From positions 620,001 to 684,000 of the forward strand of contig NZ_CP119809.1 in NCBI RefSeq assembly GCF_029338395.1: 64,000 bases of DNA, in the 5' to 3' direction. The position numbers and the translations under genes were made by a program. The DNA is from Halorussus caseinilyticus (GTDB lineage Archaea > Halobacteriota > Halobacteria > Halobacteriales > Haladaptataceae). Positions 2,968-45,105 of the stretch are shown here, piece after piece. Within the stretch, counting starts at the first letter, position 1. Every line of letters begins with the position of its first letter. Below the pieces are notes generated by a model. It was not told the origin of the DNA and made no database searches. It saw only the letters and a list, made by a program, of their open reading frames with translations.

Positions 2968-3042
2968 GCCGGTGTAGCTCAGACTGGCTAGAGCGATTCC
3001 TTCGTAAGGAATAGGCCGAGGGTTCAAATCCCTCCACCGGCT
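2968..3042 (+). tRNA. tRNA-Thr (anticodon CGU)
   Basis: A complete cloverleaf. The acceptor stem is GCCGGTG with CACCGGC, the D stem GCTC/GAGC, the anticodon stem ATTCC/GGAAT around loop TTCGTAA (anticodon CGU, reading ACG), and the T stem GAGGG/CCCTC around TTCAAAT. The discriminator base is U, and CCA is not encoded. It is 75 bases long without an intron. Its last 28 bases are the attachment site of the element that follows, so the gene stays functional after integration. Confidence 0.97.
3015..3042 (+). repeat. Left attachment site (attL) within tRNA-Thr
   Basis: A 28-base core covering the 3' part of the tRNA (end of the variable loop, T arm and acceptor 3' strand). It is identical to 8808-8835. 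The flanking bases differ on both sides (G before the core here, T before the right copy), which sets the core limits. Confidence 0.93.
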
Positions 3043-3969
3043 TTCGCAGAGCGAAACGTCGTAAAGGCACCTACGGGACGGTGTCTATATAAACTTCTCC
3101 CCCGGAAGACCTAACATTTGATTAGGTTTACCCGTGGGTTTTGCCGCTAACATTTGATTCCCCGACCGACACGGAGCCTCCGCGTCTGGCGGTTCTGAAA
3201 AAGGAGTCGTTCTGCTGTCGTTTGCGGCCCGCGCCTTTCACGGCGGGAAGGTGGTTCTTCGAGAATGTCCGCACGAGTAATTACTCTAAGTAATCCTCCA
3301 AGGGGCCTGTTCTCTGTCGGATGTTGCACGCTAAAGATGGGACCGGGTTGCCCAACCTTGGACTTCTCAGAAGCCCCAAACCTGCGGGAAGGCGCGAGTC
3401 CTTGTTAATCCGAACTTCTCTGGTCTGTCCTTCAAGACTCGAATCCTATGATTCCCTTCTGTACTCGGGAATCCCCAACTCTGCGGGAAGGCATAGTTCT
3501 CGTTTCGGCTAATCCGGGTCACGCCTATCCTCAAAGGATTGCTCACCTTCCCGCAGGTCTTGGCTCTTCCCGATTCCTCCCGGCTGTCTTGGAGGCAAAG
3601 GTTCTCGAACCCAATTCGCCCCTCCCCTATCGGGGATAATAGAAACGGCCTTAGAGTCGGTGTTGCCACTCCGAGTGTCCCAACTTGGCCGGAGCGCGGA
3701 AACGACCTACCTAAGGAGCGTTAGTCGCCACAGTCCGTCCTCGACCTCGGCGGGTTGTGTTCCCCACTTCAGTCTCCGGTCTGTGGCCCTCCACCATCGC
3801 TGTGCGCTATCCGAGAGCCGTACCCGGTGGATACGGCCCATGTATGAACCTCGAACTTGGGACGGTGCTTAGCCCACGATACTGACCTTCGGCCAGTTAG
3901 AACAATCCCGAACGCCGTGGGCGGGCGTCCGTTCTGCTTCCCTCACTAATAAGAATAGACAACCATTCA

Positions 3970-3991
3970 TATACCCTGTCGAGGGTATATA
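3970..3991. promoter_or_regulatory. Palindrome overlapping a TATA-like box
   Basis: Perfect 9-bp inverted repeat ATATACCCT / AGGGTATAT with a 4-base spacer (GTCG), running directly into TATATAAAGG. The overlap with a promoter-like sequence suggests an operator. No gene with a clear start follows on the right, so the transcript, if any, would be non-coding or from a decayed gene. Confidence 0.45.
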
Positions 3992-4138
3992 AAGGAAAGG
4001 CGGGGAAATCGGGAAGGCCCCTTACGCGCAAGGAAAATTGCTCATCAACGCGAGGCGGGTTACGTCTATACAGAAGGACCCTTCCGAAGTGGTGTAATAA
4101 CCGGGGGCACTACGCTGGCTATGATTCAGGGCCTTCTA

Positions 4139-4195
4139 TCAGCTTATACAGGCCCTTGTGAACACGCTTGACACATCCGAGTTACACGAAATGTT
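4139..4195 (-). pseudogene. Relic of the C-terminal part of the winged-helix gene
   Basis: Nucleotides 4140-4190 closely match 4969-5020, inside the intact winged-helix gene (shared blocks include ATACAGGCCCTTGTG and ATCCGAGTT). The match covers only the 3' end of that gene and no open frame extends from it, so this is a degraded duplicate of the regulator rather than a working gene. It shows that the element once had a second copy of the regulatory module, or arose by recombination between related elements. Confidence 0.7.
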
Positions 4196-4313
4196 GGCGA
4201 CTGGGACAGACTGACCGTGCTGAACGCGGGCACCGAATACCGGATATCAGGACGCTCATTATTTTTCACGCCTAAATTTCGGTTACTCTAACGAATCTTC
4301 TGGCTTTTGTCCT

Positions 4314-4814
4314 TTATAACTCAACCGCTTCTATGAAATCAAGAGTATCCTCTATTGCGTTTCTAACCTTCTTTTGAGTCTCTTCATCCTTTTCAATCTT
4401 CTCAAGGTATCCGTAATCGTGAACTAAGTTATTCCGTAAGTTCACGATGGGATTTTTATTGCTCTCTATACGATTGATTTCTTCGTCATGTTCTTGAAGT
4501 GCCCCGTACTTAGAGCATTCCGTTATCAATTTTCCAAGGCTGTAGCTGTTGTAGCCCTCGTTTTCAAACTCCTCTAAATCCCAACCGTAGTGAAGTCGGA
4601 TAGCCTCGCTTATAACGGTTTCCAGTCTTGTTGAAGTGAGTATAAGAGATAACGCATATTCATTGTCTTCCAAACGGTCACGGATAGTATCTACTGGAAA
4701 TGAGCGAGAGAGTGTAGCACTACATTCCACACCGGCCGAAGCATGTGCTGAGAGACTTTGAGGATTGCGGTCAGGTGAACTTCCCCCGGATTCGTCTGTC
4801 ACATATAACGACAT
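4314..4814 (-). CDS. HEPN-like protein, candidate RNase or toxin
   Basis: A 166-residue protein, AT-rich compared with the chromosome. Residues 50-165 are predicted helical and end in LRNNLVHDYGY, which contains R127-N-N-L-V-H132, the RX4-6H signature with the polar residue after Arg that is typical of HEPN ribonucleases and HEPN-like proteins. The first helices (SLILTSTRLETVISEAI) match the usual start of a HEPN bundle. The first 40 residues are low-complexity, so a later start is possible. HEPN proteins are common in toxin-antitoxin and anti-phage systems, but some lack activity. No adjacent MNT-type nucleotidyltransferase antitoxin is seen. Identification rests on the motif and helical pattern only. 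Confidence 0.6.
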   Translation of the reverse strand: MSLYVTDESGGSSPDRNPQSLSAHASAGVECSATLSRSFPVDTIRDRLEDNEYALSLILTSTRLETVISEAIRLHYGWDLEEFENEGYNSYSLGKLITECSKYGALQEHDEEINRIESNKNPIVNLRNNLVHDYGYLEKIEKDEETQKKVRNAIEDTLDFIEAVEL

Positions 4815-4944
4815 ATGATTTCAAATACTTAGCGTTTCCTGAATTTTTGAATATAACTTTACCATCTGACTTCCTTGAATATCAAGTCGGCAACCGTTTA
4901 TTGGCTCTGGAAACTGTCGATAGTCTCTCCTATTTCTTCTGGCG

Positions 4945-5151
4945 TTACTCTGATTCTGGGTCGCTCTCCAGCTCATACAGGCCCTTGTGGACGCGCTCGA
5001 CGTATCCGAGTTCCATGAAACGCTGGAGACGGTTGCGGACGTGCTGGCGGCTGTAGTCGTGTTCCTCGGCGATGTAGGCGGGCGTACATCGGCCCTCTCG
5101 CAACATCTCAAGGATAGCCCGGTCAGTCGGGCTAAGGTCTATCTCGGGCAT
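4945..5151 (-). CDS. Small winged-helix DNA-binding protein
   Basis: A 68-residue winged helix-turn-helix protein of the kind common in haloarchaeal proviruses and integrated elements. Helix 1 is in LSPTDRAILEMLRE, the HTH is roughly residues 24-45 (PAYIAEEHDYSRQHVRNRLQ) and the wing follows (MELGYVERVHKGLYEL). No other domain is present. It is divergent from the SWIM-domain gene. The 199 bases between them contain two related palindromes, so the protein probably binds there and represses itself and its neighbour (inference). A degraded copy of its 3' end lies at 4139-4195. The HEPN gene lies 130 bases downstream on the same strand. Confidence 0.85.
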   Translation of the reverse strand: MPEIDLSPTDRAILEMLREGRCTPAYIAEEHDYSRQHVRNRLQRFMELGYVERVHKGLYELESDPESE

Positions 5152-5183
5152 ACTGGTTGTTGTCTCCTTGCCTACTTATACTT

Positions 5184-5244
5184 TTGAACGTATGCATATG
5201 AAGCAAACCCTACGTAATAGTTGGTTCGTATGCATACAAACCAA
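5184..5244. promoter_or_regulatory. Twin palindromic operators in the divergent promoter
   Basis: Site 2 (5221-5244) is a 24-base palindrome with a single mismatched pair: arms TTGGTTCGTATG and CATACAAACCAA. Site 1 (about 5184-5206) shares the central TATGCATA (5191-5198) and the outer TT/AA. The two centres are 38 bases apart. TATA-like sequences flank them on both sides: CTTATACTTT at 5177 for the leftward winged-helix gene and AGGTATAAGA near 5246 for the rightward SWIM gene. This is the expected layout for a dimeric regulator controlling both divergent genes. Confidence 0.75.
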
Positions 5245-5350
5245 AGGTATAAGACAACGCCACTCTTACTCGGAAGTAGGAAGCGCGGTATTGCCTCGCA
5301 GAAAGGCCGGTGCTGGAACACCGACCGTGCTTCTGATGGAAGCCAGAAGC

Positions 5351-5854
5351 ATGACAACAAAGGAAACCAGCGGTAAAAAGAGTGCTGTTCGGGAACTAAC
5401 CTTCGGCGCAAAGACGGCCAAGCGTGTCGCGTGGGAGTCGTGGGAGTTCACCGTTGTCGGCCCGCACCTCGTGAAGGTCACGAACGCCAGCTACGGCTAC
5501 CTGAAGGAGGACCACGCCTACACGGTCGGTGTCGAGGAGCGCGACGGGCGTGGTGTTCCCGCCGAGTGCGACTGTCCCGCCGACGTTCACCACGAATCCG
5601 ACTGCAAGCACAAGGTCGCGGTCGCCACTATCGGCGGGAAGGTCCTGCTCGATGCGGCGGTCAACTTCTCGGCCCCCTCGGAAGGCGGGCGCGTTCCCGC
5701 CGAATCAGTCACCGTTGCCGACAAGCTCCGCGCCGATGGTGGTTCCTCGGTCGTGGCCGAAGCGTGTCCGAACGGGCAAGTCCGGTGTGGCGGTCCCGAA
5801 GACGACGAACTCCCGTGCTTCGCGTGCTACTCGGGGAACCGGAGTGAGGCGTGA
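5351..5854 (+). CDS. SWIM zinc-finger domain protein
   Basis: A 167-residue protein with a SWIM motif, C73-x-C75 then C85-x-H87 (segments CDCPADV and DCKHK), which binds zinc and usually mediates DNA or protein contacts. A second cysteine group near the C-terminus (C139, C146, C156, C159) may form another zinc site. SWIM proteins of this size are frequent in haloarchaeal plasmids and proviruses. The ATG at 5351 was chosen because the conserved part follows it. An in-frame ATG at 5336 is possible; further upstream reading runs through the promoter. GC-rich, unlike its AT-rich neighbours. It overlaps or abuts the next small gene, suggesting translational coupling. Confidence 0.85.
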   Translation: MTTKETSGKKSAVRELTFGAKTAKRVAWESWEFTVVGPHLVKVTNASYGYLKEDHAYTVGVEERDGRGVPAECDCPADVHHESDCKHKVAVATIGGKVLLDAAVNFSAPSEGGRVPAESVTVADKLRADGGSSVVAEACPNGQVRCGGPEDDELPCFACYSGNRSEA

Positions 5855-5859
5855 GTTCG

Positions 5860-6003
5860 ATGAACGGCTTGCTCCTGCTGTTCGAGGGCGTTTCGACGGA
5901 CGACGTTACCGAGGAATTCCTCGGTGACTTGATGGACGTGGCAGAGGACAACGACCTACTGCTTACGGGTATCTCGGTTTGGGGCGATGAATTAGAAGAA
6001 TAG
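5860..6003 (+). CDS. Small acidic protein of unknown function
   Basis: A 47-residue reading frame (50 residues if the GTG at 5851 is used, which overlaps the stop of the SWIM gene). The protein starts MNGLLLLFEGVSTDDV and is acidic, ending in DELEE. The tight junction with the SWIM gene suggests an operon and possibly translational coupling. Codon composition is haloarchaeal. No family recognised. Confidence 0.6.
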   Translation: MNGLLLLFEGVSTDDVTEEFLGDLMDVAEDNDLLLTGISVWGDELEE

Positions 6004-6062
6004 AGTTTTGAAAACGGATTGAATCTCTTCTCGGACCTTGCCGTTTAGAATCAACTCGATGT

Positions 6063-6392
6063 TCAAAGCTCGTCGTGTTCTTTTACAAGGTCGAAACGAA
6101 TATCCTCCACGCCACGCCCTTGCTTACGGGCCTCTGCCGTTTGCACAGTCTGTTTGGCAATTTCGGAGACGGTAGTATCGTAGTTGTTCTCCAGCATAAG
6201 CAGATACACGGACAGCAAATTGATGTGGGTATCCAAACCGTCGTTAGCTATAGTTCCGTTTTGTCCTGTAGCGTAGAGTTCACCGCTCTCACCTACATTT
6301 GAATCCCAATGCATGAATCCAAAGACGCTACCCGGAACAGTATCCTCAAGCCGGTCAATGATTTCCTGCTGTTTATCTGTATTTGAGGACAT
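6063..6392 (-). CDS. Hypothetical protein, 109 residues
   Basis: No family recognised. The protein is acidic and soluble with no membrane segment or signal peptide. It has an N-terminal helix (DKQQEIIDRLEDTV), a middle segment with Trp (FGFMHWDSNVG) and a helical second half (HINLLSVYLLMLENNY, TVSEIAKQTVQTAEARK). The gene is moderately AT-rich like its neighbours. It ends near the SWIM operon end (convergent) and starts divergently from the membrane-protein gene at 6485, with which it shares a roughly 90-base promoter region containing ATTTATAAAAAAG. This position next to the membrane/cyclase pair makes it a candidate third component, but nothing in its sequence shows what it does. Confidence 0.65.
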   Translation of the reverse strand: MSSNTDKQQEIIDRLEDTVPGSVFGFMHWDSNVGESGELYATGQNGTIANDGLDTHINLLSVYLLMLENNYDTTVSEIAKQTVQTAEARKQGRGVEDIRFDLVKEHDEL

Positions 6393-6484
6393 GATTTCAG
6401 TCTATCACCTCAACCACTTAGTGCTGTGGATTTATAAAAAAGATATATTCCCGAACCTTTTCGAGAAGGAGTGTTATCTACAGA

Positions 6485-6931
6485 GTGATGATACAAGGAG
6501 TCATAGACTGGCTATTTCTTAATGTCCGAAAAGCAGTAGCAATTGTCCTCATAACGTTCTTAGTAGCAATTATAGTCGCTCAATACTATGACACCGGAAA
6601 AAAGTATGCACGTATTGGAGAGGATTTCCGTGGAAAAGCGGCAGTCGCGGTAGCCCTGATAATAATCGCTCTCGGAAGTTCTTTTACTACTGCAATTCTC
6701 CAACCTCACCTTATCCGCATATTCCGTGATATTCGGATGCTGGTTTCTGCGCTCGGTCTTATCTGCTTTGCTGGTCTTTATCTTGCAAATCAAGAAGTGG
6801 ACGAATGGAATGTAAACGATGGAAGTCGGTTTATGCTCGCTTTGGCCCTTCTGGGGTTGGTACTCACATTCGGCCCGTGGGTATACGAGTCGATTTTACA
6901 ATGGATGATGGCCCAAATTCCTTTCATTTAA
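6485..6931 (+). CDS. Four-helix membrane protein, possible effector
   Basis: A 148-residue protein with four hydrophobic segments, about residues 17-36, 48-70, 83-101 and 115-135. Short charged loops separate them, and there is no separate soluble domain. Its start could be the GTG at 6485 or the ATG at 6488. A TATA-like ATTTATAAAA lies about 50 bases upstream. It converges on the cyclase-like gene with only 20 bases between their stops. A small membrane protein paired with a nucleotide cyclase resembles the membrane-effector arrangement of Pycsar defence, but the recognised effectors carry a cyclic-nucleotide-binding domain that I do not see here. Function otherwise unknown. Confidence 0.72.
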   Translation: MMIQGVIDWLFLNVRKAVAIVLITFLVAIIVAQYYDTGKKYARIGEDFRGKAAVAVALIIIALGSSFTTAILQPHLIRIFRDIRMLVSALGLICFAGLYLANQEVDEWNVNDGSRFMLALALLGLVLTFGPWVYESILQWMMAQIPFI

Positions 6932-6951
6932 TTCCTTTCCAAGCGTACTGT

Positions 6952-7671
6952 TTACTCCAATAGGTATTGTTCTGCCATCTCACGATGCTCCTCTATATCC
7001 TCCTTACTATACTCCAAGAAATATGAATTGGATTCACACCACTCGTAATACTCTTCGAGCGTCTGGTAGAGGAGACTACTAATATCGTCATCAACGTAAC
7101 GGAACCACTCGTGCCAGACTCGTTCAATTGGCTCATCACCATCAGGAGCGAATGCGCGCGCAGATTTATCAATAAAAATTCCAAATGGTGGTGCCTTAGT
7201 CTCGTTTTCAACAGCCTGAATCATGGGTAATCCCAAAAGAAGAGATTCTACGTAATCGGAATCAGCTACAAAATCCTGATTCACATCTTCTGAAATATTT
7301 TCTCCGTGTAAGATGGGTCCGTAGGAAAGAGACGCTCGGGGGATGTATGTGTATTCCGCACTCCGGTTCTCAATGTTGTCTTTAGCAAGTTTGCCGAAAA
7401 CATCTGAAAGAAGCTCAAGCATACTCATTTTATCGTCAGATGTCAGATATACGCCGTCCATGATGGGATAATGGGTCACAGCATCTCGGTCTATAGCATC
7501 ATCAACTGCAACATGGAGGTTAAGAATATCAATTGCAGATGTTTCGAGCGACCTTGACATTGTTCCTCGGACACCCATCAAATCCAACCAACAGACGTAC
7601 TCCTTCGTAATACCGTCCAACTGGTTAGAATCGGTATAGACGTGAGGAACATTAATCTCTTCCACCATCAC
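6952..7671 (-). CDS. Class III nucleotide-cyclase-like protein
   Basis: A 239-residue soluble protein whose motif order follows class III adenylate/guanylate cyclases. CWLDLMGVRG (residues 27-36) matches the first-strand metal Asp (D30). YPIMDGVYLTS (68-78) matches the second metal Asp hairpin (D72). RASLSYGPILHGE (112-124) matches the strand usually reading RxGxxxGxVxxG, and LLLGLPMIQAVENETKA followed by FGIFID matches the later helix and strand. Both metal-binding Asp positions are present; base-selecting residues cannot be assigned confidently. Pycsar cyclases are stand-alone proteins of similar size that make cCMP or cUMP on phage infection. Identification is by motif only and could instead be an inactive homologue. 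It sits 44 bases downstream of the integrase gene. Confidence 0.58.
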   Translation of the reverse strand: MMVEEINVPHVYTDSNQLDGITKEYVCWLDLMGVRGTMSRSLETSAIDILNLHVAVDDAIDRDAVTHYPIMDGVYLTSDDKMSMLELLSDVFGKLAKDNIENRSAEYTYIPRASLSYGPILHGENISEDVNQDFVADSDYVESLLLGLPMIQAVENETKAPPFGIFIDKSARAFAPDGDEPIERVWHEWFRYVDDDISSLLYQTLEEYYEWCESNSYFLEYSKEDIEEHREMAEQYLLE

Positions 7672-7715
7672 TATTACAGAGAGGAAGAAGTCAAATTAAT
7701 GTTTGGATGGAGATG

Positions 7716-8723
7716 CTATATATCCCGTAGATAGTCCCGCCGTCGCTCCGCTTTCTCGTCATGTGAACCCTTATCGTAGTGCTTGTCCAGAATCTTCCCG
7801 CTCATGTTCACCCTGTCGCCGGTTACGTCCTTGGGTTGCCCCGCATTCCGAGCCGCCGTCACGTAGCCCCGCCGGAGGGCATGGGGACTGACCGAACCGG
7901 GGCACTTGGAAGCGTGGCCCCATTGGGTCGCTTCGCAGGTGTCGGGGTCCCGGTCGAACGGGCACTTCCCGCCGTTGTAGAAGCACGGAGAGGTAGCGAG
8001 ATAGACGTGCTTGGTGATGGTCGTCCGACTGGTCCGACCGTGCTTGGTGGCAACCAGCGGCTTCCTGCCGTGCTTGTCCTCCACGTCGGGCCGCTGGTCG
8101 TTGATGAAGTCCGTGACGACCTCGGCGGCCTCGGGGGTGATGATTACGTCCCGCTCGCTGTGGTCCTTCCGCTTGAGAGGCGTGCCGCTCTCGGGGCGGT
8201 GTCGGAGTTCCACCGCCGGGCGTCCTTCGTCAAAGTCTCCGAGGTCGAGTGCCCGAAGGCCGCCAATTCGCATACCACACTTCCAGAGCAGAAGGAGAAT
8301 AATATGCCGAAGACTGGCGTAGTCGTACTTCCCGAGGCGGTCGAGGATGGCCGTGGCCTCTTCTCGGGTCAGCACGTCGTCGCAAATCTCGTCGTCCTCG
8401 TTGACTTTAGTGACGTTGACGAGTTCGTGAAGTCCGACCGGGACGGCTTGGATGGTTTCGCAGAACTGGATGAAGTTCTTGACTGTCCGCATATCGTTTC
8501 GGCAGGTAATGGGTTTCACGTCGTCCAGTCTCCATTCCTCGAACCGGGCTATCACGTCGCTGTCTACGTCCCGCATATCGGTGATGTTGCGCTCTTCGAG
8601 GTATTCGAGGAACCGGGTGAGGGCGGTGTCGTAGTTGTAGAGCGTCTTCTTGCTGACGTGGGCTTCTTTCCGTTTGAGGTATCTGTTCACGGCGTCTTCC
8701 GGTGGGGTTTGTTTGGTTCGCAT
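7716..8723 (-). CDS. Tyrosine recombinase (integrase)
   Basis: Catalyses site-specific integration and excision at the tRNA-Thr attachment site. The 335-residue protein has an N-terminal SAM-like core-binding domain (about 5-105) and a C-terminal catalytic domain. Visible catalytic residues are R152 (in GMRIGGLRALD), a lysine in TPLKRKDHSE, H281 and R284 (PHALRRGYVT), and Y316 (DKHYDKG). A four-cysteine cluster (C247, C254, C263, C274) between the lysine and the HxxR box is typical of haloarchaeal integrases and may bind zinc. The gene runs leftward from just inside attR, so its promoter lies between 8724 and 8807, next to a bulged hairpin at about 8781-8802. Confidence 0.93.
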   Translation of the reverse strand: MRTKQTPPEDAVNRYLKRKEAHVSKKTLYNYDTALTRFLEYLEERNITDMRDVDSDVIARFEEWRLDDVKPITCRNDMRTVKNFIQFCETIQAVPVGLHELVNVTKVNEDDEICDDVLTREEATAILDRLGKYDYASLRHIILLLLWKCGMRIGGLRALDLGDFDEGRPAVELRHRPESGTPLKRKDHSERDVIITPEAAEVVTDFINDQRPDVEDKHGRKPLVATKHGRTSRTTITKHVYLATSPCFYNGGKCPFDRDPDTCEATQWGHASKCPGSVSPHALRRGYVTAARNAGQPKDVTGDRVNMSGKILDKHYDKGSHDEKAERRRDYLRDI

Positions 8724-8780
8724 GGTTGTCTTGTACGACGCCCACCTGCTACGGCCTCCGCGTACTGACGCGGTAACGAC

Positions 8781-8802
8781 GACAGGGTTCAGCGAACCTG
8801 TC
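8781..8802. promoter_or_regulatory. Bulged hairpin between integrase and attR
   Basis: GACAGG, a single bulged G, TTC, loop AGC, then GAA and CCTGTC form a near-perfect stem. It lies in the integrase promoter region and immediately inside the attachment core, a place where recombinase accessory or repressor sites are expected. Role is inferred from position. Confidence 0.4.
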
Positions 8803-8807
8803 GGAGT

Positions 8808-8835
8808 GCCGAGGGTTCAAATCCCTCCACCGGCT
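8808..8835 (+). repeat. Right attachment site (attR)
   Basis: Exact 28-base copy of the tRNA-Thr 3' end at 3015-3042. Only the T arm and acceptor 3' strand are present, so it is not a second tRNA gene. It marks the right end of the integrated element. Confidence 0.93.
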
Positions 8836-9023
8836 CTTTCTGGCGAACATAACGAACGGCCAACTACTGCTGAGTGAAATTTGATTAAGGCGAATTGAAG
8901 TTCGTATAGACGAACTACTTTGAGTCTATAATATATCACACCATAAGACTTTTGAGTACGGCTATACTTCCTATATGTATAAGGGATAAAACAAATTGAC
9001 GTTTATTGTTGGTCACTAAATCT

Positions 9024-9389
9024 ATGAGTTCTGATGGAGAGGTCACCAATACGGCTACATCTGCAAAAAACACTATCAGTAGTTCATGGGATGAATGGGT
9101 AGAATCGATAGTCCGAGAACGGAAATCTGATTCTGGCTCTATCCGGCTTTTAGGATTTTTTAGACAGATAGTAACCGAGTTCATAGTTTACTTACTATTT
9201 GGCATTATTTTTTCTACATTTGTTCTTGTCATTGATCTATTTACCCCGTTTATTCTGATGCCGAACGCTTGGTATGCCTATCCGATGTACATAGGGGCCG
9301 CAGTTTCTCTTTTATTTATTACTGGCCATGACAAATGGCTCCGGCCGGAAGAAGAGCATCAAAAAAATTCGGATGATGCCGAAGATTAG
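9024..9389 (+). CDS. Hypothetical membrane protein, 121 residues
   Basis: No family recognised. The N-terminal 45 residues are polar and Ser/Thr-rich, followed by two hydrophobic segments (about residues 55-76, around VYLLFGIIFSTFVLVIDLF, and 84-100), and a charged tail (RPEEEHQKNSDDAED). The ATG at 9024 is preferred to an upstream in-frame codon because the polar N-terminus begins there. The gene is AT-rich and lies just outside attR. It converges with the next gene and their ends overlap by four bases. Confidence 0.65.
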   Translation: MSSDGEVTNTATSAKNTISSSWDEWVESIVRERKSDSGSIRLLGFFRQIVTEFIVYLLFGIIFSTFVLVIDLFTPFILMPNAWYAYPMYIGAAVSLLFITGHDKWLRPEEEHQKNSDDAED

Positions 9390-9958
9390 TTAAGCCGCTT
9401 GCTTCGCTTTTTACCGATGTGGAATGAATCGGTGAATGTCACGATGGGATTATTGAGACTGCTAGAAATCATTTCTCTTGCCGCGCTACTAAGACCACTA
9501 ATAAATAACAAAATAAAAATGAGGTCAACAGCTAAACCTCCAACACTAAGAGGGATTCCTCTCTGAATCATTGCCTTATCCCAAGCAGGATAGAGTAACG
9601 CAAATAGGAGGGCAACTGGGACAAGACCCTGACGTATAAGCGCCCCGCCAATTGCTCCGCTAAAGAGGATAGTTGCATTCACGTAAATAAACATGGTACC
9701 ACCTATTAGTAATTGTTTCCATAAAGCCAAGTCCTCAAAGTCACCTTCGTTTTCGTTTTCAACATAATCTTGGCTCATCAGGATAGCAAATCCAAAGATA
9801 GTAGCTAAGCCAAGTCCACCCCAGAGGGGGCCAACTTGATAAAGAGAGTAGAGAGAAAACGCTGACAAAATAACGTAGCCAATTATGAATCTACCCGTAT
9901 CACGACTGGTCCGAACAATAAATTCGATTGGACCGCTTGTCTGAGTAGATTCAGTCAT
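9386..9958 (-). CDS. Hypothetical multi-pass membrane protein, 190 residues
   Basis: No family recognised. About five hydrophobic segments are visible (roughly residues 23-41, 45-62, 82-106, 108-124 and 138-157), with a short acidic loop (ENENEGDFED) and a basic C-terminal tail (HIGKKRSKRLN). AT-rich relative to the chromosome, like its convergent partner at 9024-9389, which it overlaps by four bases. The pair probably arrived together by transfer, possibly with an older insertion at the same tRNA site. Confidence 0.65.
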   Translation of the reverse strand: MTESTQTSGPIEFIVRTSRDTGRFIIGYVILSAFSLYSLYQVGPLWGGLGLATIFGFAILMSQDYVENENEGDFEDLALWKQLLIGGTMFIYVNATILFSGAIGGALIRQGLVPVALLFALLYPAWDKAMIQRGIPLSVGGLAVDLIFILLFISGLSSAAREMISSSLNNPIVTFTDSFHIGKKRSKRLN

Positions 9959-34433: not shown

Positions 34434-35804
34434 TCAGTACTTCGGGTCCGCGCCGGTCGTCGCGTAGATGTCGTCCATGATGGAGTCGCGCTCGCGTTGC
34501 CACGCCTCCAGACCCTGCGGGCGACTCGGATACTTCCCGTAGTGGTCGATGAGGTCGTCTGCGAGGTTCTTCGTCTCGTAGAGGTCGTAGATGAGGTCCC
34601 AGTGGCCGAACGACTTGATTGCGGTCTGAATCTTGAGCCACCACCCGACGTTCGCACTGCCCGAGTAGAGCGCCTCGGCGAGTTTGCTCGCCGGGAGCGC
34701 ACCCAGTAGACCCATCAGGTCGTCCACGTCCACCGCGGTCGAGAAGATGTTGTACACGTCGAGACCCGCGTAGCGCGCGCCGAAGTGGTCCATCACGCGC
34801 CGGTTGTACTCCCAGAGGTTGGCCTCGCCCACGTCGCCGTCCTCGATGGCGTCGATGGCGGCCTCGGCCGCGTACTTGCCCGCGTAGGCCGCGCCAGCGA
34901 TGCCTCCTCCCGTCGTCGGGTTGACGTGGCCCGCGGCGTCGCCGACCGCCATGAATCCCGGCGCAGTCGCCGAGTCGTAGGGCCGTCGCGTGGGCAGGGC
35001 CGCGCCGAGTTTGTCCTCGACCGTCGCGTTCTCGAACTCCGGCCGACGCCGGAGGTCCCGCTTGAGGTCTTCGACCAGTTTCATCGGTTCCTCGTTCATC
35101 TGGAAGCCGAGTCCGGCGTTGATTTCGGTGTCCGTGCGCGGGAAGTACCAGAGGTAGCCCGCGGCCCGCTTGGTGGGTTTGAACACCAGAGCGTCGTCCC
35201 ACGGCACCGGCTCTTCGACCTCCACGATTTCGCGGTAGGCCGAGCAGAACTGGGAGTAGGTGACGTTGGTGTCGAAGGTGGGGTCTTCGAGGTCGGCCTT
35301 GTCCTGTAGAATCGACAGCGACCCCGCGGCGTCCACCACCACGTCGGCGCTGTACCGGTGGATGTTGCCCTTGCGCTTGCCCCGAACGCCGGTCACGCGG
35401 CCGTCTTCGCGCTGGGTCACGTCCTTGACCACCGTGTCGTAGTGGAACTCGACGCCCGCGCGCTCCGCGCCTTCGATGATGCGCCGACCGTATTCCCACC
35501 GGTCGATGACCGCCAACTCGCCGGGCACCGGAATCTCCAGCACCGTGTTCTCTTGAGGAATCTCGAACCGGCCGTGGTCTACCCCCGTGTTGGTGAACGA
35601 CGGTTCGAGTTGGGACTTCGGGATGGCCTCGGGGAAGGCGTCCGCGCCCTTCAGGGCGTCACCGCAGGCGATGTGGCCCGCTTCCTCCTCGGTCTTTCGC
35701 TCCACTACGACGACATCGTATCCTTCGCGTGCGGCGGTCGCGGCGGCGTAACAACCGGCCGTCCCCGCCCCGACGACGACGATGTCGCACTCGTGCGTAG
35801 CCAT
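34434..35804 (-). CDS. Geranylgeranyl reductase family protein
   Basis: FAD-dependent reductase of the digeranylgeranylglycerophospholipid reductase family, which saturates isoprenoid chains of archaeal membrane lipids or of menaquinone. The 456-residue protein opens with the dinucleotide motif VVVGAGTAGCYAAATAAREG (residues 9-28) and has the second FAD motif PGFMAVGDAAGHVNPTTGGG. The family PxxYxWxFP-type segment reads AAGYLWYFPRTDTEINAGLG. A promoter-like CTTTATACGC lies 33-42 bases upstream. Divergent from a 2Fe-2S ferredoxin gene, whose product could supply electrons (inference). Confidence 0.9.
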   Translation of the reverse strand: MATHECDIVVVGAGTAGCYAAATAAREGYDVVVVERKTEEEAGHIACGDALKGADAFPEAIPKSQLEPSFTNTGVDHGRFEIPQENTVLEIPVPGELAVIDRWEYGRRIIEGAERAGVEFHYDTVVKDVTQREDGRVTGVRGKRKGNIHRYSADVVVDAAGSLSILQDKADLEDPTFDTNVTYSQFCSAYREIVEVEEPVPWDDALVFKPTKRAAGYLWYFPRTDTEINAGLGFQMNEEPMKLVEDLKRDLRRRPEFENATVEDKLGAALPTRRPYDSATAPGFMAVGDAAGHVNPTTGGGIAGAAYAGKYAAEAAIDAIEDGDVGEANLWEYNRRVMDHFGARYAGLDVYNIFSTAVDVDDLMGLLGALPASKLAEALYSGSANVGWWLKIQTAIKSFGHWDLIYDLYETKNLADDLIDHYGKYPSRPQGLEAWQRERDSIMDDIYATTGADPKY

Positions 35805-42526: not shown

Positions 42527-43182
42527 CGACTTCCGAGTTCGCGGGCGCGGTGGCGTTCGCGGCGAGTACGGGCGTGACGACGTTCTTCGCGCCCTGCGCG
42601 TTCCCACTTTTGCCGGGATACGTCGGCTACTACGTCAGCGAGAACGACGACTCGTCGGGCGTAGTCCCCGCGGCGGCGGCCGCATCGGGCGCGCTGGTCG
42701 CGCTGGGAGCGATTGCCGCCCTCGCGTTCGCGCTCGGCCAGACAGTCACCTCGGTCCTGCCGCTTTTCGAACCCATCGTCGGGGTGGGTCTCGTGGCGTT
42801 CGGCGCGCTGACCCTGACGGGTCGCGCGCCCGACCTGCGGGTGGCGCTCCCCGAGCGTCCGGATTCGGTCGCCGGGTTCGGGGTCTTCGGCGCGGTATAC
42901 GCGCTCGCGGCCGCCGGGTGCGTCGCGCCGCTGTTCCTCGGCGTGGTGACGCAGGCGCTCGCGTTCTCGCCCGCCCGCGGTCTCGCAGTTCTGGGCGCGT
43001 ACTCGGGTGCGGTCGCGGCCCCGCTGGTGGGCGTGACGCTCCTGACGAGCGCGGGCGTCGAGACGTGGCGCGACCTCGGTCGGTACTCGGGGACGCTGGA
43101 GCGAGCGGCCGCCGTCGTGATGATACTCGCGGGACTCGGCCAACTCTACCTCTCGGTCGTGGTCCTCGAAGTTCTCCCGTGA
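42523..43182 (+). CDS. CcdA/DsbD-type thiol transporter
   Basis: Membrane protein that passes electrons from cytosolic thioredoxin across the membrane. The 219-residue protein has six hydrophobic helices with the two redox cysteines C25 (FFAPCAFPLLPG) and C133 (AAAGCVAPLFLG), the family hallmark. Its start codon overlaps the end of the TlpA-like gene. Together with Sco1 and TlpA it forms a compact module supplying reducing power to extracytoplasmic thiols. Confidence 0.92.
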   Translation: MTTSEFAGAVAFAASTGVTTFFAPCAFPLLPGYVGYYVSENDDSSGVVPAAAAASGALVALGAIAALAFALGQTVTSVLPLFEPIVGVGLVAFGALTLTGRAPDLRVALPERPDSVAGFGVFGAVYALAAAGCVAPLFLGVVTQALAFSPARGLAVLGAYSGAVAAPLVGVTLLTSAGVETWRDLGRYSGTLERAAAVVMILAGLGQLYLSVVVLEVLP

Positions 43183-43233
43183 TAGACGGGCAGTCAGACT
43201 AAGTTGCCAGACGGCGTGTCTTCGACAGAGACC

Positions 43234-43695
43234 ATGGGGGACCAAGACCAGCGTCAGGCGGCGCGACTCGTGGACCGCGTTATCGAGGAAGTCGCCGCGT
43301 GGCCCCACGTCGAGACCAACGAACACCGGTTCGAGGGCCGAGAGTTCACTCTCGGCCCGCGCGAGGTGGGCCACGTCCACCGATGGGGTATCGTGGACGT
43401 GCCGTTCACCAAGCGCCTGCGCGAGACCCTCGTCGAGGAGGACAGGACGAAAGAACACCACGTCGTCCCGGAGTCGGGGTGGACGACACACTACATCGAA
43501 GGCGACGAGGACGTGGAACGGGCTATCTGGTTGCTCCGATTGTCCTACCTCTACCACGTGAACAATCTCAAGAAGACGCCGAAGGGCGCGGAGATGTTCG
43601 AAGAGATAGACGTAGCCGAGGAATTGGAGGAGTTGGGCGTGAGCGACGAGGTTCGGGCGGCGTTCGAGCGGCGAGGGGTGATGGCAAACTTATAA
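43234..43695 (+). CDS. Conserved protein of luciferase-like domain type (DUF5519-like)
   Basis: A 153-residue soluble protein. Segments RFEGREFTLGPREVGHVHRWGIVD, which I note as REFTLGPREVGHVH, and HHVVPESGWTTHYIEGDEDVE match the small conserved domain sometimes annotated as luciferase-like in bacteria and haloarchaea. No cofactor motif is visible. The C-terminus is helical (DVAEELEELGVSDEVRAAFERRG). The ATG at 43234 is preferred over a TTG at 43204. Function unknown. Confidence 0.75.
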   Translation: MGDQDQRQAARLVDRVIEEVAAWPHVETNEHRFEGREFTLGPREVGHVHRWGIVDVPFTKRLRETLVEEDRTKEHHVVPESGWTTHYIEGDEDVERAIWLLRLSYLYHVNNLKKTPKGAEMFEEIDVAEELEELGVSDEVRAAFERRGVMANL

Positions 43696-43755
43696 TATAA
43701 ACTCATCTTCGACCGGAAAAGGTAGTAATTTAATTCTGGAGTTCAAACTAGAAAT

Positions 43756-44088
43756 GTGAAAAAGAAAACAGCAATCAATATATCAATTGGCGCTATTTCA
43801 TCATTATTATTGGTTGATTTTCCGGGAGGTGCTTTAATAGGGGGTAGTCTCGCTGGCTATCTGCAGAGGGGAAGTAGAAAAAAGAATATAATAGTTGGTC
43901 TTTTAACTGGTTTGGTGGCCATACTATTGCTGTGGATAATTACAATCAGTAATGAACTTCTCCAAGGAGAAATTAGATATTGGTGGGCACTGGTACAACC
44001 ATTGATTACGGCGTCTTTGTATGCAATCGTTATTTCACCTCTTGGCGGTGCCATTGGTGGATACGTGCGGGAGGAAACCTCCGAATAG
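43756..44088 (+). CDS. Small membrane protein (DUF5518-like)
   Basis: A 110-residue protein with a GTG start, three hydrophobic segments (about 6-25, 45-65 and 80-103) and Gly-rich motifs (GGALIGGSLAGYL, SPLGGAIGGYV) typical of the haloarchaeal DUF5518 membrane family. The gene is strongly AT-rich compared with its left-hand neighbours and starts an AT-rich island that extends to about 45.05 kb. Confidence 0.72.
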   Translation: MKKKTAINISIGAISSLLLVDFPGGALIGGSLAGYLQRGSRKKNIIVGLLTGLVAILLLWIITISNELLQGEIRYWWALVQPLITASLYAIVISPLGGAIGGYVREETSE

Positions 44089-44179
44089 AGCCACGATGCA
44101 CAATTAGCAACTATATATAAGTATAGATTATTTACATAAGATATAAAACTTTAAGTAGTTTATATGAATTTGTCATCTC

Positions 44180-44959
44180 GTGTCTAGTGAAAAAGACATA
44201 TTTGGAAGACGAAAAGCTCTCAAAATAGCAGGTTCTGGACTTTCTCTGGCTACTGTCGGGTCAGCTAGCGCCAACGCTTCTTCAGGACGAGAACTGAGCG
44301 ACATTCTCGAAAAAGCACGGCGTATTCGAGAGAGAACGGGAAGTCAAGAACAGTTCATTGCGTATCTTGAAAACCACGGTGTTTCAATTAATACGTCAAA
44401 AAACGAGTTTAAGAAGCCAGCTCGACCTTCCGACGGTACATCCGAAAATGTCACCACGCAGAAAGTAGAAGACGCAGACATGACCGGCTACTTGACAGTC
44501 GGTGGGAATCTCACCGAGACGTTCGCAGATTATAAAGTAGAAATAAAAGACGGATACGGAACTGGTGAAGATAATCACGACGTAATTGGTATTTCTTGGG
44601 TACCTGATGATTACGACTTACAGGAGAACGGTACTCGAACACAAGACGCCACCAACGCGTATCTCAAGGATTCCAGCTTCGATGGTGCGCTATGGGGATT
44701 CGACGATTTCAACGCGTGCGGGTGGGGATGTGACCTCTCCTTCTCGGTAGCCACCGACATGGACAAAACGACAACAGAGACACCGAGAAAGATAGAAGCT
44801 ACTTATCAAACGGTGTGGAACGAATCAACTAGTGTTGTCGGATTCTCCGTTGATTCCAGTGGTTCCATGTCTCTCAGTGTCTCAGGCGGTGGCGGGCAAA
44901 CATACGTCGAGCAAATAGACAGACAGGTAGTTAAAGAAAGCCAGTCAACCGAACTATAG
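44180..44959 (+). CDS. Tat-exported protein of unknown function
   Basis: A 259-residue protein with a GTG start and a twin-arginine signal (GRRKALKIAGSGLSLATVG) ending near residue 33. The mature part is AT-rich in coding, with a helical region (45-75) and a beta-rich core (about 105-255). Cys179 and Cys183 lie close together (NACGWGCD) and may form a disulfide. Ser/Gly-rich strands occur near the C-terminus (SVDSSGSMSLSVSGGGG). No family recognised. A secreted antimicrobial, adhesin or immunity target is conceivable, but nothing shows it. Neighbouring AT-rich DUF5518-type gene suggests joint acquisition. Confidence 0.7.
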   Translation: MSSEKDIFGRRKALKIAGSGLSLATVGSASANASSGRELSDILEKARRIRERTGSQEQFIAYLENHGVSINTSKNEFKKPARPSDGTSENVTTQKVEDADMTGYLTVGGNLTETFADYKVEIKDGYGTGEDNHDVIGISWVPDDYDLQENGTRTQDATNAYLKDSSFDGALWGFDDFNACGWGCDLSFSVATDMDKTTTETPRKIEATYQTVWNESTSVVGFSVDSSGSMSLSVSGGGGQTYVEQIDRQVVKESQSTEL

Positions 44960-45105
44960 GGCCATACATCCCACCTCTGATTTGATTGATTTTGCCATAT
45001 AATTAAACGAGATAGAAAAACCAATTTATATACTAAATGTAGAATCTGCTTCTCCTACGATGCCGTTTCTGAATCCTTAAACGCGCCCAACCGTTTGTAC
45101 CGAAC

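Follow-up and report, generated by a model that had tools for sequence, protein, structure and literature searches.

A probable two-layer decision point, combining a repressor-operator DNA switch with a leader RNA, in an integrated haloarchaeal mobile element

The 199-bp divergent interval between the starts of a small winged-helix regulator gene and a SWIM zinc-finger gene, in an integrated haloarchaeal element, probably works as a two-layer decision point, in which a repressor-operator DNA switch would be combined with a leader RNA able to fold in two states. The window, i.e. the whole 64-kb stretch of DNA that was analysed, is the segment 620001-684000 of a haloarchaeal chromosome, and both genes belong to a 5.8-kb low-GC element whose 28-bp exact repeat is the 3' end of tRNA-Thr (Table 1). 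The sequence-only reading had proposed that two palindromes in this interval form a switch read by the small winged-helix protein. Conservation, position relative to the promoters and homology to phiH RepR give that proposal good support; what it missed was a conserved leader RNA in the same interval, a probable second layer.

The Phage_integrase domain of the element's tyrosine recombinase scored 25.9 bits against a cut-off of 27.1, and several further element proteins gave no Pfam matches. The start of the SWIM gene was set at ATG 5351 and not at 5336, because the leader described below fixes it. A second, decayed copy of the regulator gene is located at 4119-4205 (-), with 83 nt that are 76% identical to the intact gene and an in-frame stop. 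Just beyond the right att repeat, the low-GC stretch 8936-9958 contains two membrane-like ORFs and possibly consists of remnants of another element; a further low-GC region (0.45-0.56) is found at 43001-45000 within the GC-rich window.

Table 1 Features of the integrated element and of its divergent regulatory interval (positions in the 64-kb window).
Feature	Position	Strand	Basis or remark
Integrated mobile element	3015-8835	.	28-bp att direct repeats, 100% identical; low GC
att repeats	3015-3042 (within tRNA-Thr 2968-3042) and 8808-8835		Repeat search
Winged-helix regulator, 68 aa (MarR_2 / HTH_24)	4945-5151	-	Above Pfam cut-offs
Regulator TATA-like box, AAAGTATAAG	5175-5184	-	About 27 nt before the regulator ATG; from sequence
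Operator site 1 (putative), GAACGTATGCATATGAAG at 5186-5203	5184-5206	.	Adjoins the regulator promoter
Operator site 2 (putative), 24-bp palindrome TTGGTTCGTATGCATACAAACCAA	5221-5244	.	Abuts the SWIM-gene promoter
SWIM transcript TATA-like box, AAAGGTATAAG	5243-5253	+	About 28 nt before the leader start; from sequence
Structured leader RNA	5278-5353	+	Predicted transcription start to SWIM ATG; covariance model, covariation, two-state energies
P1	5279-5289/5324-5334	+	Covariance model
P2	5293-5296/5304-5307	+	Covariance model
P3	5308-5312/5319-5323	+	Covariance model
P4	5326-5335/5344-5353	+	Shares 5326-5334 with P1; pairs the AUG itself here
SWIM zinc-finger protein, 167 aa (PF04434)	5351-5854	+	Pfam
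Tyrosine recombinase (integrase), 335 aa	7716-8723	-	N-terminal SAM-like domains above the Pfam cut-off

The near-perfect 24-bp palindrome claimed for site 2 is there, with 11 of its 12 arm pairs matching. Palindromes of this quality were reached in 1 of 2000 first-order Markov versions of the 127-bp stretch from the regulator to the leader. The palindrome by itself is not unique in the 64-kb window, which holds seven such 24-mers; site 2 is the AT-rich one among them, located between divergent starts. The related site 1 was also recovered, its centre 38 bp from that of site 2, and proved much less symmetric. Both sites have in common the core CGTATGCATA, whose two occurrences in the 4.39-Mb genome are both in this interval. 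A direct-repeat search found a 37-nt direct repeat, at a spacing of 38 and with 70% identity, spanning both sites; given this repeat and the single site present in the closest relatives, the two window sites probably arose by tandem duplication. The TATA-like boxes predicted outside each site could be placed, one per gene, and each site abuts the upstream side of its box. The regulator transcript is predicted to be leaderless because of the short distance between its TATA-like box and its ATG, so that TATA spacing predicts a leaderless repressor mRNA and a leadered early mRNA in the element. A regulon defined by the half-site TGCATACGTTC was rejected: with one mismatch, the half-site is too common across six genomes.

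Relatives of the regulator were detected in 109 of 391 Halobacteria genomes (E<=1e-8). When palindromes were searched for upstream of related winged-helix genes, the check on which the sequence-only reading had staked its switch, the site was kept between the same divergent genes in all four of the closest relatives with the same gene pair (L054, L055, L056, L058). Each of them has one site, near GAACGTATGCATACGTTC, in the same place and flanked by two TATA boxes in the divergent interval; the 'twin' arrangement is therefore real in the window but a local feature. Other regulator subclades have a different palindrome at the corresponding place, for example CCTTAGGcCCTAAGG with LQYVRD proteins (subclades were grouped by recognition-helix pattern, and their association with palindromes was judged by inspection). 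A palindrome that varies with the regulator subclade is the pattern expected of a co-evolving local repressor and operator, and the palindromes are very probably operators of the adjacent regulator.

An alternative, which we regard as improbable, is that an activator or a host factor, and not the element's own repressor, recognises the palindromes. The change of palindrome with the adjacent regulator subclade argues against it, and a GvpE-type upstream activating sequence (TGAAACGG-N4-TGAACCAA-like) had no match with up to 3 mismatches. The two sites do occupy the position immediately before the TATA boxes at which GvpE and similar haloarchaeal activators bind (PMC8241225), but the homologous proteins of phiH and phiCh1 are repressors: in each of these viruses Rep represses the early genes divergent from it, and the phiH1 T4 promoter is Rep-repressed (PMC4284463). 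Repression by the adjacent regulator is also the reading favoured by the comparison with these viruses. The window regulator shows the domains of a small winged-helix DNA-binding repressor (Pfam MarR_2 and HTH_24) and homology to phiH1 RepR (29% identity, hhalign probability 95%), and its divergent early gene has palindromic operators, by prediction, between the promoters. The immunity regions of phiH and phiCh1 share with the window a small winged-helix regulator divergent from an early gene (T4/ORF49 in the viruses), operators between the promoters and a leaderless regulator transcript (the last two predicted in the window). They differ in the sequence of the regulator (only about 29% identity between the window protein and RepR) and of the palindrome; furthermore, the early product of the window is a SWIM protein, and the window element, 5.8 kb long and integrated at a tRNA gene, has no recognised virion genes. 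Judged by its sequence, the window arrangement is a phiH/phiCh1-type repressor-operator system, and the 68-aa protein a distant RepR relative.

The leader was first noticed when the SWIM side of the relatives was compared, as a region of about 70-95 nt that ends at the ATG and contains covarying helices. P1 closes a three-way junction with P2 and P3, and is followed by the P4 hairpin and then by the ATG; the P2 loop is purine-rich and GAAA-like, P3 is of the GGUG-CUGGAA-CACC type, and across the family P4 ends 0-6 nt before the ATG or takes it in. Searches were run with the covariance model R1 and then with R2, to which P2 had been added. In the alignment of 97 leaders, which like that of an earlier set of 53 (A7, A8) is fitted to the model and leans towards it (81 of the 97 rows were unused in building the model), 94.1% of the pair cells are standard and 20 of the 21 pairs vary on both sides; the 53 leaders gave a similar value (about 93%). 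Slid-register controls of the 97 leaders reached 30-51% standard pairs, and all shuffles were far below. An alignment based on nucleotide sequence only recovers P1 and P3 unprompted. In the new rows, G-U outnumbers A-C mismatches (67 vs 30), which favours an RNA of this strand. Across the family, AT content peaks between -30 and -24 relative to the leader start, which puts the start of transcription at the 5' end of the leader. Comparative evidence is needed here, since single-sequence folding of the window leader was barely better than shuffles (z -1.27). What the comparison yields is a conserved, covarying, aptamer-like structure in the 5' leader, which is almost certainly a real conserved RNA.

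We give hardly any credit to the notion that the fold acts as DNA (a cruciform, an origin or a recombination site). It does belong to mobile elements, which often contain inverted repeats, but it ends at the ATG and starts about 27 nt after the TATA peak, it tolerates G-U over A-C on this strand, and its 5' end coincides with the start site of phiH1 T4. Downstream of the leader RNA, a pattern near AAACGGTATCG, at about +26/+27, was observed in the first 13 codons after 48.5% of the leaders, compared with 7.2% after codon shuffling; it is found in two reading phases and at many loci (e.g. L190, L092, L079), and the RNA element may extend into the coding region.

The covariance model matches 207 of 391 Halobacteria genomes and 69 of 86 genera (E<=1e-3). 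In the phylum sample it matched 15 Halobacteria and, of about 160 genomes from the rest of the phylum, none; in its own genome, the window copy alone passes (E<=1e-3). The leader is likewise present on viral contigs (L050-L053), in virus BJ1 and on plasmid pNRC200 of Halobacterium salinarum, where it is located upstream of VNG_RS11530. A search of the window and 18 relative loci against Rfam 15 gave no leader match at E<=1, just tRNA and chance matches. Most of the distinct leaders (113/132) have opposite them, on the other strand, a putative gene for a small regulator, belonging to the winged-helix family in 74 cases, to a second family in 29 and to a third in 10, with none recognised in the remaining 19; the proposal of an A1-type winged-helix gene opposite every leader was thus rejected. 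The second family (about 70-80 aa, TEREREQI-like; MAKTRALLTETEREQIAGE...YQAxSRVRRRI...) was seen in the regulator position at L100, L109, L102, L192 and about 25 further loci, and neither it nor five kinds of early protein had Pfam matches.

The genes downstream of the leaders are varied, often small and without known function. At L203, the protein encoded immediately after the leader (1448-1533, +) begins with a sequence resembling a tyrosine integrase. These contexts bear on whether the SWIM zinc-finger protein autoregulates its synthesis by binding to the leader. It stands right before the SWIM start in 29 of the 30 closest SWIM homologue loci, as such autocontrol would have it, but the majority of the leaders detected with the model stand before genes unrelated to SWIM, among them that of the integrase-like protein of L203, and we consider autocontrol very improbable; that the leader belongs to SWIM genes at all was rejected on the same grounds.

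The T4 transcript of phiH has been studied since the 1980s. According to the phiH1 record, this early lytic transcript starts at 34556, and the RepR transcript starts at the RepR ATG. Folded by energy alone from the mapped start, the phiH1 T4 leader forms a long P1 that contains both P2, with the loop GGAAAA, and P3, CCGUG-CUGGUAU-CACGG, and phiCh1 has the same P1/P2/P3 fold; a P1/P2/P3 leader at the T4 start is hence a further likeness to the window. The covariance model found no significant match in phiH1 or phiCh1; visual inspection and energy folding identified the folds, which therefore count as a shared architecture and not as proved homologues. The phiH T1 leader, target of the antisense RNA Tant (L155, MK002701, 38582-38735), resembles the window leader in having GAGC at the 5' side, GCUC in the middle and GAGC again at the 3' side just before the AUG; unlike it, the T1 leader is longer (151 nt) and is missed by the covariance model. 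In Halorubrum virus BJ1 (ORF6 regulator / ORF7), the regulator is 53% identical to that of the window and a divergent leader match ends at ATG 3598, whereas the operator is of the CTTAGGCCCTAAG type and the first gene is unrelated to SWIM. The annotated valine start of BJ1 ORF7 (L154, AM419438, 3547-3600), at 3547, falls inside the leader, which points to ATG 3598 instead.

In 119 of 130 leaders, at least 3 nt belong both to the 3' strand of P1 and to the 5' strand of P4. The energy gap between the two folds has a median of -0.5 kcal/mol (interquartile -2.9 to 2.5, 130 leaders), with energies taken from standard parameters, not for molar KCl. When the same five nucleotides are paired with the 5' strand, 88.5% of the cells are standard and all five pairs change on both sides; when they are paired with the strand preceding the ATG, 90.5% are standard and four of the five pairs change on both sides. 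Comparative and energetic evidence thus both support mutually exclusive helices, and covarying alternative pairings of this kind are likely the comparative signature of a two-state switch. Swapping 5' and 3' strands produced a small excess in similarity (4.83 vs 4.48), a weakly informative result because GAAGC is so common. P4 may not block initiation in every case, given that in many copies it ends just before the AUG without pairing it. Like riboswitches and attenuator leaders (the archaeal fluoride riboswitch, ribosomal leaders), the window leader has a conserved junction and exclusive helices near the start codon; it differs from them in having no known ligand or Rfam 15 match, and in belonging to a family located on varied mobile-element genes and not on a metabolic pathway. 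As there is no candidate ligand, it was not filed as a riboswitch.

These data incline us, by a modest degree, towards two-state translational control by the leader. A simpler view keeps the operators as the only switch and takes the leader as a static conserved structure, for instance an mRNA stabiliser or a means of leadered translation independent of SD. The diverse downstream genes, which give no hint of a ligand, the P1/P4 overlap that is just partial in AGCA-type leaders, and the location of the AUG outside P4 in most copies would all suit a static structure; such a structure would nonetheless have no need of two pairings of the same five nucleotides that both covary and are nearly isoenergetic, and we consider it rather unlikely.

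In the two-layer arrangement that we favour, a dimer of the 68-aa winged-helix protein would bind the CGTATGCATA palindromes, which lie one against each of the two back-to-back promoters, on its upstream (TFB/TBP-binding) side. Binding would shut the SWIM early promoter and regulate the repressor's own leaderless gene, as RepR/Rep do in phiH/phiCh1. Once the early promoter fires, the mRNA would begin with a 75-nt leader having two exclusive folds: an open one, in which P1 closes the P2/P3 three-way junction and the start codon is free, and a closed one, in which P4 takes over the 3' strand of P1 and, by covering the AUG or lying directly against it, would be expected to block translation. A host or element signal would set the balance between the two folds. 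Protein binding, the direction of regulation, the control of translation and the existence of a ligand are what we infer here. More tentatively, and with some doubt on our side, the leader might represent a new class of natural archaeal RNA switch, present in many haloarchaeal mobile elements and in phiH, that would sense a common host-state signal and license translation of the first early gene after repressor release.

Repressor-operator control of haloarchaeal proviruses was already known. No description of the leader was found in the searchable literature, beyond whose reach lie the key phiH work of the 1990s and the 2007 work on the phiCh1 operators. About half of the haloarchaeal genomes in the sample have the leader; the small regulators that it faces belong to three or more families, and the T4 transcript of phiH shows the same architecture. 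Should the leader switch translation, the archaeal lysis/lysogeny decision would gain a second layer, and a group with very few known natural RNA regulators would gain another. The leader is also a handle for finding, and correctly annotating, the early operons of archaeal mobile elements.
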